From: Halorussus sp. MSC15.2
GTDB lineage: Archaea; Halobacteriota; Halobacteria; Halobacteriales; Haladaptataceae
Reading direction: 5' to 3'
DNA: 64,000 bases
Assembly: GCF_010747475.1 (NCBI RefSeq)
Contig: NZ_VSLZ01000003.1
Span: 186,001-250,000 of the forward strand
This document shows, one piece after another, positions 3,975-50,488 of this stretch. Within the stretch, counting starts at the first letter, position 1. Each line of letters starts with the position of its first letter. A program made the position numbers and the translations under genes. Under the pieces are notes generated by a model. It saw only the letters and a program-made list of their open reading frames with translations. It did not search any database and was not told where the DNA came from.

Positions 3975-4801
3975 ATGTCAGAGCAAACTCAAGACGACGC
4001 CACGGACAGTACGACGGGTCGGCGAACGCTACTCCAACTCGCCGCGCTCGCCGGGCTGCCGCTGGCCGCGTCCGACCTCGGACGTGCGGCCACGAGTGGC
4101 CACCTCGGCGAGACGTGGACCGGGAGTGAGAACTTGGACATCGACGTCAGTGGCTCCAATCAGGGAGCCATCAACCTGAGTTCCGAAGAAGGGTTCGCGT
4201 TGAAGAGCACTCTCACTAGCGCCACCGACTCGACCGGAACCGCTATCTACGGCAATACCGCGTCCGATAGCGGAAAGGCCGTCTGGGCCGAGGCCACCAA
4301 CGATTCCGGAGATGCGATGGGCGTCTACGGCACCTCGTGGTCACCGAACGGATACGGCGTCTACGGTGACGACGGCGGAGCGGGCGGCTACGGTGTCTAC
4401 TCCGAGGGCGATATGCACGTCGAAGGCGACTTCACCGCCTCTGGCACCAAGAACTTCGTCCAGACCGTCGAGACGGCCGACGGCGAGAAGCAGGTCGCGT
4501 ACACCGCCGTCGAGGCCGACCGGGCGCAGACCGAGACGACCGGCGTCGCCGAACTCGAAGACGGTCGCGCGGAGATAGACCTCCCCGAACACTTCGGCAT
4601 GGTCACGTCGACGAGGAGGACCTCGTCGTCCAACTCACGCCCTACGAAATCGACGTCCCGGGACTCGCGGTTACGGAGCGAACGACCGACCACATCGTCG
4701 TGGAATCGCGAGACGGTACCGGCGAGTTCGAGTTCTCCTACACCGTTCGCGGAGTCCGCGAGGGCTACGAGGACACTGCGGTCGTCCGCGACCCCGAGTG
4801 A
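3975..4801 (+). pseudogene. Tat-exported glycine/tyrosine-repeat protein, frameshifted near the 3' end
   Basis: The ORF starts with a Tat signal (GRRTLLQLAALAGLPLA) and contains tandem short repeats of the type GVYG...YGVYGDD...GGYGVYSEG near residues 115-145. After DLPEHFGMV (about 4600) the frame switches to low-complexity Ser/Arg text. Reading from 4598 in the shifted frame gives HVDEEDLVVQLTPYEIDV and ends VREGYEDTAVVRDPE at 4801, an acidic, well-behaved C-terminus. The span is one base short of a whole number of codons. An AT-rich promoter candidate (GAAATTAG) sits about 30 nt before the ATG. The family is conserved in haloarchaea, but its function is unknown. Confidence 0.7.
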
Positions 4802-40654: not shown

Positions 40655-42727
40655 TCACTCGGTCGTCCGGCGTGCGAGCATCGCGGCCGCGAGGAGTGCG
40701 ACCACCGACGCGCCGACCGTGAATCCCGGCGTCTCGCCGCTCGAAGTCGTCTCCGCGTTCGTCTCCACGTCCCGTTCGTCCTCGACCGCCGCTTCGCCGG
40801 CCGACTCGTTTCGCACCTCGAAGTTCAACGTCAGTCCGTCGTACTCGCGCGCGGCGCTCTTGTTTCCGACCGGGAAGTACGTGATGGCGGCCCGGAGCGT
40901 GTACGTACCGGGGTCCGACCCGGTCACTTTCGCCGAGATGTCCATGGTCTCGCCGGGTTCGATGACGAACGTCGAAGTTGGGAGACCGCCGCCGCTGCTC
41001 TGCACGTCGCTCCCGCCCTGAATCCGGATGCCGCTAGGTACCTGAAGGGTAATCTGGACCTTCGTGGGTTCGTCGTTGGTCACGTCCGCAGTGAACGCGC
41101 CCGCGAGTCGGCCCGGACTCCCGGGTGCGATGACCTTTTGGGGAGCGTAGAGTCGAGCGACCTGAAACAGTTCGCCCCTCGCGAACGACTCGCCGTTGGT
41201 CTCGCCGTTCGACGACTCCGCCGTCGATTCGACGGACTCGGTCCCCTCCGTCACACCCATGGACGAGGGCGACTCCGCAGTAGTCGTGGTGGTGGTAATC
41301 GACACGTCGCCGACCGGAATCGTCCGGACCCGTTTGACCGTGCGCTCGCCGTTGTCTGTCACCCGGAGCGTGACCGTGTGAGCGCCCTCGTCCTCGAACG
41401 TGAAGGTGTTGTGCGACCCGTAGTGCTCGAAGTAGCCGTCGCCGTCGAAGTCCCACTCGTAGTCGGTAATCTGGCCGTCGGCGTCCGCGGACGCCCCGGC
41501 GTCGAAGGTCACGGTCCTGTCGGGACTCGGGTTCGACGGCGAGTACGTGAACGAGGCCTCGGGGGCCGAGTTCTCGACCCGAATCGTCCGAGTCCGCTTG
41601 ACCGTGTGCTCGCCGTTGTCGGTCACTCGGAGCGTGACGGTGTACGTACCGGCGGTGTCGTAGGTGAAGGAGTTCTGGGACCCGTAGTACTCGTAGTAAC
41701 CGTCGCCGTCGAAGTCCCACTCGTAGTCGGTAATCTGGCCGTCGGCGTCCGAAGACGCTCCGGCGTCGAACGTGATGGCGTCGTCGGGACTCGGCTTCGT
41801 CGGCGAGTAACTGAACGTGGCGTTCGGTGCGTCGTTCTGCACCGTCACCGACCGCACCTTCTTGCTAGTCGCTTCACCGTTGTCGGTGACCCGGAGCGTA
41901 ACCGTGTAGGTGCCAGCGGTGTCGTAGGTGAAGGTGTTCTGAGACCCGTAGTACTCGTAGTAGCCGTCGCCGTCGAAGTCCCACTCGTAGTCGGTAATCT
42001 GGCCGTCGGCGTCCGAAGACGCTCCGGCGTCGAACGTGATGGAGTCGTCGGGACTCGGACTCGACGGCGAGTAACTGAACGAGACGTTCGGCGGTTCGTT
42101 CCCGACGGTGACCGTCTTCGTCTCCTTGGTGGTCACGCCGCCGTTGTCGGTGACCCGGAGCGTGACGGTGTAACTGCCAGCGGTGTCGTAGGTGAAGGTG
42201 TTCTGAGACCCGTAGTACTCGTAGTAGCCGTCGCCGTCGAAGTCCCACTCGTACTCCTCGATGCTCCCGTCGGTGTCCGAGGACGACGCGGCGTCGAAGG
42301 TAATCGACTCGTCTGGCACCGGGTCAGACGGCGAGTAGTCGAACGCGGCGGTCGGCGCGTCGTTCGTCACCGAGACTGTCTGGGTCGTCTCGGCGGTGTT
42401 GCCGTCGTCGTCGGTAACCCGGAGCGTCACCACGTACTCGCCCGCCGAGTCGAACGTTTGCGTGACCGTCGCCCCGTAGTACTCGTAGTAGCCGTCCCCG
42501 TCGAGGTCCCACTCGTACTCGTCGATGGTCCCGTCGTCGGTGGACGACGAAGCGTCGAACGTCACCGTCTCGTCGGGCACCGGGTCCGACGGCGAGTAAC
42601 TGAACGACACCGTCGGCGCGTTCCCGGCGGCCGACGCGCCGACGGTGGTCACCCCGGCCGTCGCTCCCACCGACAGTACACAGACCAATACCCAAAGATA
42701 CGTCAGAGATTCCCGTCGTCTATTCAT
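40655..42727 (-). CDS. PKD-repeat surface protein with PGF-CTERM anchor
   Basis: A 690-residue exported protein. A signal peptide (LWVLVCVLSVGATAGVTTVG) is followed by five PKD domains of about 86 residues (about 36-470), each with a core such as ITDYEWDFDGDGYYEYYGSQ and ending YTVTLRVTDNG. A Ser/Thr/Glu linker and one beta-sandwich domain (about 540-640, GTYTLRAAITYFPVG) come next. The C-terminal PGF motif is TPGFTVGASVVALLAAAML. A double A/T box (TATATAAATATT, 42752-42763) is the promoter. It converges with the SDR gene, with 4 nt between stops. Likely adhesion or S-layer-associated. Confidence 0.87.
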   Translation of the reverse strand: MNRRRESLTYLWVLVCVLSVGATAGVTTVGASAAGNAPTVSFSYSPSDPVPDETVTFDASSSTDDGTIDEYEWDLDGDGYYEYYGATVTQTFDSAGEYVVTLRVTDDDGNTAETTQTVSVTNDAPTAAFDYSPSDPVPDESITFDAASSSDTDGSIEEYEWDFDGDGYYEYYGSQNTFTYDTAGSYTVTLRVTDNGGVTTKETKTVTVGNEPPNVSFSYSPSSPSPDDSITFDAGASSDADGQITDYEWDFDGDGYYEYYGSQNTFTYDTAGTYTVTLRVTDNGEATSKKVRSVTVQNDAPNATFSYSPTKPSPDDAITFDAGASSDADGQITDYEWDFDGDGYYEYYGSQNSFTYDTAGTYTVTLRVTDNGEHTVKRTRTIRVENSAPEASFTYSPSNPSPDRTVTFDAGASADADGQITDYEWDFDGDGYFEHYGSHNTFTFEDEGAHTVTLRVTDNGERTVKRVRTIPVGDVSITTTTTTAESPSSMGVTEGTESVESTAESSNGETNGESFARGELFQVARLYAPQKVIAPGSPGRLAGAFTADVTNDEPTKVQITLQVPSGIRIQGGSDVQSSGGGLPTSTFVIEPGETMDISAKVTGSDPGTYTLRAAITYFPVGNKSAAREYDGLTLNFEVRNESAGEAAVEDERDVETNAETTSSGETPGFTVGASVVALLAAAMLARRTTE
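41400..42620. repeat. five tandem PKD-coding repeats, near-identical DNA
   Basis: The PKD units repeat with a period of about 255-260 bp. Repeats 2-4 share long identical runs (for example the block encoding WDFDGDGYYEYYGSQN recurs almost unchanged at 41680, 41950 and 42210). Such arrays can expand or contract by recombination. Confidence 0.75.
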
Positions 42728-48005: not shown

Positions 48006-48021
48006 TTTAGGTCAGCCAAAA
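48006..48021. promoter_or_regulatory. imperfect metal-repressor-like box
   Basis: TTTAGGTCAGCCAAAA, a near-palindrome of the TTTAGG-N4-CCTAAA type with one mismatch. It lies 18 bp upstream of the perfect copy and between the two divergent genes. Confidence 0.45.
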
Positions 48022-48038
48022 TCGGAACGCTTTTTGTT

Positions 48039-48054
48039 TTTAGGTGTGCCTAAA
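48039..48054. promoter_or_regulatory. perfect metal-repressor-like palindrome overlapping the transcript start
   Basis: TTTAGGTGTGCCTAAA is a perfect inverted repeat (TTTAGG-N4-CCTAAA) ending 5 nt before the ATG at 48060. It resembles DtxR/SirR/Idr iron-regulator sites (TTAGG...CCTAA). Position over the initiation site, next to the T-rich A/T box (TTTTTGTTTTTA), suits repression. Confidence 0.6.
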
Positions 48055-48059
48055 CCGAT

Positions 48060-50488
48060 ATGGCGACTAATCGACGAGACCTGTTGAAAGCGGGGAGCGC
48101 ACTGTTCGCTGGCGTCTCACTCGCCGGTTGTGGCGGGAAGTTGGAATCTGCAGCTCCGGGGGCGTCCGGCGACGGGAGCGGCGGCGACGCGCCGAAACCG
48201 GCCGAACTGGCCGTCGCGGCCGAGTGGAACGTCTACCGGGCGCTGGCGGCCGACGCGCTCGCGCTCGGTCTCGCGGGCGAGTTCGACGCCGCGGCCGGCG
48301 TCGCGGCCGACGCCTTCCAGAAGTTCGAGGGGGCCACGGGCGAGTGGGGCGCCCACGAAGTCCTCGAAACCACCAGTGAGAAGCGCTACGCGGAGTTCGA
48401 GGAGGCGCTGGGCCAACTCCGAGAGCGCGCGAAAGGCGAGAACGTCGAGGAGATGCGAGTCGAGGCGGACCTCGTCTCGAAGCACCTCTCGGCCGCCCAG
48501 ACGAAACTCGTCGGCGAGGAGAACGCTCGCGCGCTCGACCTCCAGTTCCTCGGGACGCGCCTCGTGACGGCCTCGTCGCTCTACGCGGCCGGGAAGGGCG
48601 ACGCCGCGGCGACGATTGCGGGCGACACCTACGAGCGGTTCGAGCAGGCCGCGGTCCACGAGGACCTCGAAGCGGCCGACGCCGAGAGCTACGAGGGCTT
48701 CGAGAGCGCCGTCGAAGCGGTCGAGAAGGCCGCGAAGGCCGGGACCGGCGGAACGGTTCGCAACGAGGCCAACGCTGCCTTCGACGCCGCCGCGACGGGG
48801 TCGTACGCGGTCGCGGCCAGCGAGAGCGCGGCCGGGGCGGGCCACCTCGCGGCGATGCAGGCACGCGGCTACGACGCTTCGATGCTGGCCTCGCTGGGCG
48901 GCCCCTCGACGGCGTTCGCGCACGCCGCCGCGCTGAACGTCTACCGGGCGCGGGCCTACGACGTGGCGTGGCTGACCGCCCGCGGGAAGTCCGAGTACGC
49001 GAAGACCGCGGCGGAGGACATCTTCGCCCACTTCGAGGGCGCGAAGGCCCACGAAGCGCTCGAAGAAGCCGACCACGAGGCCTACGAGGGCTTCGAGACC
49101 GGACTGGAGGACCTCGCCAGCGCGGCCGGAAAGGGCGACGCCGAAGCCGCCGCGAGCGCCGCGGACGCCGTCGAGAAACACCTCCGGGCCGGAATCTCGG
49201 CGCTGGCTACCGAGACCGAGGCCGCTGTCCTTCAGGCGGCCTTCTTCCGGGCGCGGTTCGGCGACGCCCGCGAACTGTACGCGCTCGGCGAGGGGAAGGC
49301 GGCCGCGAGCGTCGCGCAGGGTCTCTTCCAGCGGTTCGAGCGCGACGAAATCGGCTTCCACGAGCGCCTCGAGAGCGCGAGTGAGAAGCTCTATCAGTCC
49401 TTCGAACACGAACACCTCCAAGACGGGCTGATTCCGGCGTTCAAGAACGGAAACGACGGTGCCGTGGAGACGCACTTCGGCGGAGTGAACGACTCGCTCC
49501 TGCAGTTCGCCACGAAAGTCGGGTCCGAGGCGCGGGTCAGCGCCGCCGAGAGCGGCCTGCTGAGCGCCCGCGCTTCGACGCCGCCGCGCTCGCGGCGCTC
49601 GGCGAGTCGAAGCGCGCTCGGTCGGTGGTGCAGTCGGCGTTCCAGCACTTCGAGGAGGGCGCGGGCGGGTTCCACGAAGCGCTCGAACACGCCGACCACG
49701 CCCTCTACGAGTCGTTCGAGGGCGCGCTGGAGTCGGTCGGAAGCGCGGCGAAAAACGGCGACGCCTACTCGTCGGCCACGACGTTCAACGGGAAGGCGGT
49801 GACTGCGCTATACACCGTCGTCTCGAACGCGGGCGGTGACTTCGGCGAGGCGGCCGCGACCGTCGCGCAGGACGCGTTCGCCGCCTTCGAGGAGGCCGAG
49901 GTCCACGAGTTACTGGAGAAGGCCGACCGAGACGCCTACGAGTCCTTCGAGGGTAAACTGCAGGGACTCGTCGAGGCGCTGAAGCAGGGGTCGGGCGTCT
50001 CCGGCGCGCTCTCGGCGTTCGCGCGCGCCTCGCTCCGCGCGGAGTTCGCGGTGGCCGGAGCGCCCGGGAAGGCCCCGGTCGGGAAGTCCGAGTCGAGCGA
50101 GGGCGGTTCCGAGACGAAACTCTCTGGCGGGCCGAACGTCGTGAAGGGCACGCCCGACGACGCCGACCACGTCGTGAAACTGAAGGCCGTCTCGTTCGAC
50201 CCGGCCGAACTGACGGTCTCGAAGGGCGACAAAGTGGCCTTCGTACACGCCGCGGGAGAACCCCACTCCGTGACGGCCTACGGCGACAAGATTCCCGAGG
50301 GAGCAGACTACTGGGCGTCCGGCGACTTCGACTCCCAGAAAGCGGCCGAGACCGGGTGGGAGAACGGGAAGGGCGCGGTCCAGTCGGGCCAGTCGTTCGT
50401 CCACACCTTCGAGACGACGGGCACCCACGAGTACTACTGCGTGCCCCACGAGGCCGCGGGCATGACCGGGAAAATCGTCGTGGAGTAG
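48060..50488 (+). pseudogene. Tat lipoprotein with six HExLE repeats and a C-terminal halocyanin domain, single-base frameshift
   Basis: The start NRRDLLKAGSALFAGVSLAGC is a twin-arginine signal with lipobox. About 650 residues of Ala/Glu-rich helices carry six copies of a unit like AEDIFAHFEGAKAHEALEEA ... YEGFE, each with HExLE (HEVLE, HEDLE, HEALE, HERLE, HEALE, HELLE). The last 110 residues are a blue-copper halocyanin domain with ligands in GEPHSVTAYG and EYYCVPHEAAGMTG. The frame breaks near 49567 after GLLSAR; RFDAAALAALGESKRARSVV continues one frame over, and the span is one base short. It matches DUF5059 architecture as I recall it. Likely a membrane-anchored metal-binding or redox protein. 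Confidence 0.82.

Follow-up and report, generated by a model that had tools for sequence, protein, structure and literature searches.

The window analysed here, a stretch of 64,000 nucleotides, comes from a Halorussus genome (contig C3, 186001-250000), for which the closest named relative found is Halorussus aquaticus XZYJ18. The gene under study is carried on the + strand and is preceded by two palindromic boxes, with the start codon ATG at 48060. Its first part, in the correct frame (48060-49577, + strand), encodes the signal, helical units 1-4 and the start of unit 5, and its second part, in a shifted frame (49580-50488, + strand), encodes the remainder of the helical region and a copper domain, with the stop codon at 50486-50488. 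The signal (48060-48131, + strand) is of the Tat lipoprotein type, reading RRDLLK with its RR motif and then the lipobox LAGC with Cys24, and the residues R5, R6 and C24 are kept in homologues, which bears out the description of the product as a lipoprotein in an earlier note on this DNA. Both parts match the DUF5059 profile (PF16502) well above the Pfam gathering score of 25 bits, the first over profile positions 1-452 of 619 (E=3e-160, 535 bits) and the second over positions 455-619 (E=3e-59, 202 bits). Judged by these matches, the helical part of the protein is one known family, DUF5059; the helical HExLE units pointed out in the earlier note are real, while their membership of this family had been overlooked. 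Elsewhere in the window, inspection by eye of the list of open reading frames indicates at 40655-42727 on the - strand a large exported protein in which PKD-like repeats occur several times and the C-terminal segment resembles an anchor.

The stretch had been taken before as a single protein gene, and it was overlooked that a one-base deletion splits it into two frames. The open reading frame 48060-49802 comprises the signal, units 1-4 and then out-of-frame sequence, while units 5-6 and the copper domain sit in the different frame 49580-50488. In the alignment with Halorussus aquaticus, which has 95.5% nucleotide identity to the window over 9 kb and an intact open reading frame of 810 amino acids, the deletion is placed at 49571-49575 on the + strand, near 49572, with CGCGGCTT present in Halorussus aquaticus where the window reads CGCG-CTT. 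There is no second frame-breaking gap within the gene in this alignment, the other gaps being read as intergenic, and in two more Halorussus homologues the frame is intact at the deletion site. Programmed frameshifting as the cause of the split frame is ruled out, because the relatives simply have one base more. A long-decayed pseudogene is not supported, given the continued constraint behind the break, where pN/pS is 0.15 versus 0.22 before it, i.e., the purifying constraint is similar on both sides; for this reason the lesion is a recent mutation or else a sequencing error. Because of the deletion the window copy is probably non-functional or mis-sequenced. Note also that the single intact reading frame that is usual in nearly all DUF5059 members, and that the window copy lacks, is the mark of a working gene and no defining feature of the family.

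The six HExLE motifs described in the earlier note are all present in the sequence, all on the + strand. Each of them belongs to a set of residues, E-H-E-Y-E, that consists of the Glu of an FE, the His and Glu of HExxE, a Tyr, and the Glu of a second FE. Among 68 full-length homologues the set is retained in 67 for unit 1 (HEVLE, 48354-48368), in all 68 for both unit 3 (HEALE, 49050-49064) and unit 4 (HERLE, 49359-49373), and in 66 for both unit 5 (HEALE, 49673-49687) and unit 6 (HELLE, 49904-49918). Unit 2 (HEDLE, 48657-48671) is the sole poorly conserved one, with the set in 34/68 and with several of its members sometimes missing at once, and it is decaying. Glu and His make up 20 of the 49 invariant positions of the domain. 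The earlier note had made its reading depend on the conservation of the His and Glu of HExLE in homologues. In five units out of six these residues hardly vary, so that the reading stands, and it is probable from this conservation that the repeats are metal sites.

The predicted structure of the domain of one homologue (L061; alignment of 62 sequences) has a mean pLDDT of 94.8 and a pTM of 0.71, the latter value making the arrangement between units less sure. In each predicted unit, a Glu ends one long helix, HExxE lies on a short helix, and the Tyr and another Glu come early in the helix that follows. With the residues so placed in the prediction, the tip of each helical hairpin would be a suitable place for a metal site. 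In some genomes there is also a shorter DUF5059 form, of about 503 amino acids and with three units.

The cupredoxin (blue copper) domain lies at 50177-50485 on the + strand (PF00127, E=1.3e-17). Its ligands H735, C793, H796 and M801 are each present in 67/68 full-length homologues, the remaining one being a gap, and with this fold and the His, Cys, His, Met set the domain belongs to the type 1 copper proteins (plastocyanin/azurin family, PF00127). The halocyanin domain claimed in the earlier note passes as Pfam Copper-bind and misses the cut-off of the NCBIfam halocyanin model TIGR03102, with 38.9 bits against 93.8. In the short form, four of six proteins have Gln or His in place of the axial copper Met, often with an extra Cys beside the ligand Cys (FCC); a Foldseek search for the short form leads to plastocyanin.

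Upstream of the gene, two boxes, annotated without strand, flank a core promoter. The proximal box, TTTAGGTGTGCCTAAA (48039-48054), is perfect, is placed between the TATA-like element and the start codon, and ends 5 nt before the ATG; the distal box, TTTAGGTCAGCCAAAA (48006-48021), has one mismatch and lies upstream of the BRE and TATA. The spacing of 17 bp between them (48022-48038, + strand) holds, as read from the sequence, a BRE-like element, TCGGAAC, and a TATA-like element, CTTTTTG. By chance, 0.21 sites with at most two mismatches are expected per 64 kb. The perfect palindrome and the near copy upstream had both been described correctly, while the position of the former on the transcript start is putative.

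In the whole genome there are 12 perfect TTTAGG-N4-CCTAAA boxes, and 24 with at most one mismatch versus 5 for the control pattern, in which the box is read backwards. The search for the box before iron genes of the same genome, which had been suggested as a check, finds it before siderophore and iron-transport genes: many copies precede iron-III binding proteins, FecCD and a siderophore cluster, the identified neighbours being Peripla_BP_2 and SBP_bac lipoproteins, a FecCD permease, and a class-III aminotransferase that belongs to a cluster with two IucA/IucC genes. The operator of the window gene is thus common to the iron-uptake and siderophore genes of its genome, as in the haloarchaeal DtxR-family iron regulon (Idr1/Idr2, SirR, TroR), where siderophore and iron-transport genes share a box as well. 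The box is an iron-type operator. A DtxR-type regulator with the three domains Fe_dep_repress, Fe_dep_repr_C and FeoA is encoded on the same contig as the window gene and is a candidate for the regulator that would bind the box in Halorussus.

The operator is also kept before the orthologues. All 75 non-redundant DUF5059 promoters (74 homologues and the window) have a box with at most one mismatch no more than 200 bp from the assigned start, which is misassigned in a few cases, and in 60 of the 75 a second box lies 33-37 bp from the first, so placed that the two flank the core promoter, with a BRE/TATA-like element between the paired boxes in homologues too. The surroundings of the homologues, 576 kb in all, contain 124 boxes, of which 112 stand before a DUF5059 gene; the reversed pattern has no match there. 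Moreover, HVO_1228, the orthologue of Haloferax volcanii, changes together with siderophore genes in two independent transcriptomes that were designed for questions other than iron, with log2 +4.2 upon endA knock-down (PMC7714728) and log2 -2.92 in a cas1/fen1 double mutant (PMC9051519). The Haloferax proteome under iron starvation (PMC11349517) does not mention HVO_1228 by name in its main text. Given the box shared with iron genes in the genome, its presence before all homologues examined, and the co-expression of HVO_1228, the iron control of the gene, as proposed in the earlier note, is well supported.

DUF5059 is found above cut-off in 77/292 haloarchaeal genomes and, in a phylum sample of 393 genomes, in none outside the order of the window; it is confined to Halobacteria. 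The protein is thus present in about one in four of the haloarchaeal genomes sampled, where it is annotated only as DUF5059 or halocyanin, although the operator of iron type and the greater part of the repeated ligands are kept in every homologue examined. No conserved operon partner was found, the commonest neighbour cluster being present at only 9/60 loci, which is consistent with a stand-alone component. The link to siderophore synthesis is modest: DUF5059 and IucA/IucC occur together in 32 of 292 genomes and each alone in 45 (Fisher p=8e-4, without phylogenetic correction).

The family itself is already known. HcpE (HVO_1228) of Haloferax volcanii and HcpG of Haloferax mediterranei have the same helical region and C-terminal copper domain, and the window gene is a member of this family, the frameshift being a feature of the window copy. 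No function is assigned to HcpE or HcpG in PMC9240420, PMC7714728 and PMC9051519, an earlier listing as a DtxR target being possible, and the function proposed below is new to the papers found.

A known protein of similar design is EfeO of the EfeUOB system, in which the cupredoxin is N-terminal and the C-terminal part is M75, a helical domain that has the motif HxxE (PMC9174327). Both proteins are exported and iron-regulated, and both have a cupredoxin and a helical metal-binding domain with a His/Glu motif, the metal binding being a prediction here. By contrast, the DUF5059 protein has its cupredoxin at the C-terminus and its motif, HExxE, in six units. Membership of EfeO/M75 is ruled out by profile, fold and genome searches: hhalign gives a probability of 0.1% against E. 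coli EfeO, the Foldseek match to EfeO is not significant (E=1.8), the window protein has no Pfam match to M75, M75 was not found in 194 haloarchaea, and the FTR1/EfeU permease was not found in 292 haloarchaeal genomes. By analogy, the DUF5059-cupredoxin protein may work like EfeO without being one. As for other folds, Foldseek with the six-unit model returns nothing with E below 0.001, its top matches, alpha-catenin and vinculin, being generic helical bundles, and the sequence search for relatives of solved structure gave only coiled-coil noise. One unit alone resembles the helical bundle of the small metal-binding protein SMBP (PDB 3u8v; Foldseek prob 0.96, TM 0.75 on the target); SMBP, however, is a single unit with 20% identity, a Foldseek E of 4.4 and no copper domain, and its fold is generic.

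We propose a model in which the gene product would be a lipoprotein of the DUF5059-cupredoxin family, exported through the Tat pathway and anchored in the membrane. In the model, an iron-sensing DtxR-type regulator would repress the gene at plentiful iron, and the protein would be produced under iron shortage. Every helical unit would hold one metal ion, most likely iron, at the cell surface; its ligands would be the conserved Glu, His, Glu and Glu, grouped about a short, kinked helix that lies between two long ones, and the conserved Tyr would be close by. As a tethered partner, the blue-copper domain would give electrons to the bound iron or take them from it, with Fe(II) oxidised or Fe(III) reduced at capture or at hand-over, and the iron would then be handed to the Fe(III)/siderophore ABC importers under the same control. 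The scheme would resemble that of EfeO, but the helical family is another one, the two domains come in the opposite order, and the search for an FTR1 permease found none. Metal capture together with electron handling is plausible, and iron as the metal, the redox role of copper and the hand-over to ABC importers are what we infer in addition. Most likely, the protein binds iron at the surface in the manner of EfeO, has its own copper redox partner built in and arose separately; to the whole of this reading, iron-repressed and Tat-exported, we would give about an even chance of being right.

The copper ligands are conserved, and under iron starvation the Haloferax proteome loses cytochromes and ferredoxins (PMC11349517), which would also be expected if the protein were an iron-sparing electron carrier, with copper carriers replacing haem and Fe-S ones under iron shortage, the repeats serving as scaffold or docking sites and their acidic and His residues being structural. 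A carrier, however, would not need about 600 helical residues with a near-invariant E-H-E-Y-E set five or six times over, and the short forms retain the helical sites while the axial Met of copper varies to Gln or His. We consider this explanation unlikely.

If the repeats are metal sites, the metal could be Mn, Zn or Cu and the box could mark a DtxR-type metal regulon broader than iron. DtxR-family regulators include Mn-type members, one box with one mismatch in the genome precedes a ZIP transporter, and the likeness of one unit to SMBP at prob 0.96 points the same way; against these stand the iron or siderophore genes that are several of the perfect-box neighbours, and HVO_1228 tracking siderophore genes, so that another metal seems quite unlikely. 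A receptor role, in which the repeats would take up a ferric siderophore or haem and not bare metal ions, seems very unlikely: the co-regulation with siderophore genes and some co-occurrence with IucA/IucC would be consistent with such a receptor, but IucA/IucC is missing from 45 of the 77 DUF5059 genomes, the ligand pattern resembles direct metal coordination, and the regulon already has dedicated binding proteins of the Fe-siderophore type.

Returning to the surface iron binder with its copper partner, we note that its origin separate from EfeO is suggested by M75 and FTR1 not being found in 194 and 292 haloarchaea, respectively. It is possible, and we put it forward only tentatively, that haloarchaea evolved independently of EfeO a surface iron capture with up to six four-ligand units and a blue copper domain, feeding ABC importers rather than FTR1; if this is true, it would be a new class of copper-coupled iron capture. 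The protein is a candidate for the coupling of copper redox chemistry to iron uptake in haloarchaea without EfeUOB or Ftr1, and its function is directly testable in a genetically tractable model, with HVO_1228 in Haloferax volcanii.

Finally, we note several features of the boxes at other genes. Among the short three-unit forms (L099, L100 and L115-L118), 5/6 have the proximal box only and the one at L100 has both. In the Halorussus genome, a siderophore-type cluster (L050; C2:748500-768000) with two IucA/IucC genes and the class-III aminotransferase has five perfect boxes within 13 kb. Other boxes precede genes with no obvious iron role, namely glutamine-synthetase-like (L050:3589), GSDH, as a lipoprotein (L052:3292), gluconate dehydrogenase subunit 3, DUF7552 (L049:3745/3765) and RibK-type, a CTP-dependent riboflavin kinase with HTH (L055:3649). 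A box-preceded binding lipoprotein of iron type (L056:3531-4711; C7:84530-85710), a paralogue of that at L050:5978-7162, likewise has a frameshift, near 4224-4232, that splits it; with this second box-controlled gene broken too, the assembly may contain occasional indels, or iron genes may have been lost in culture.
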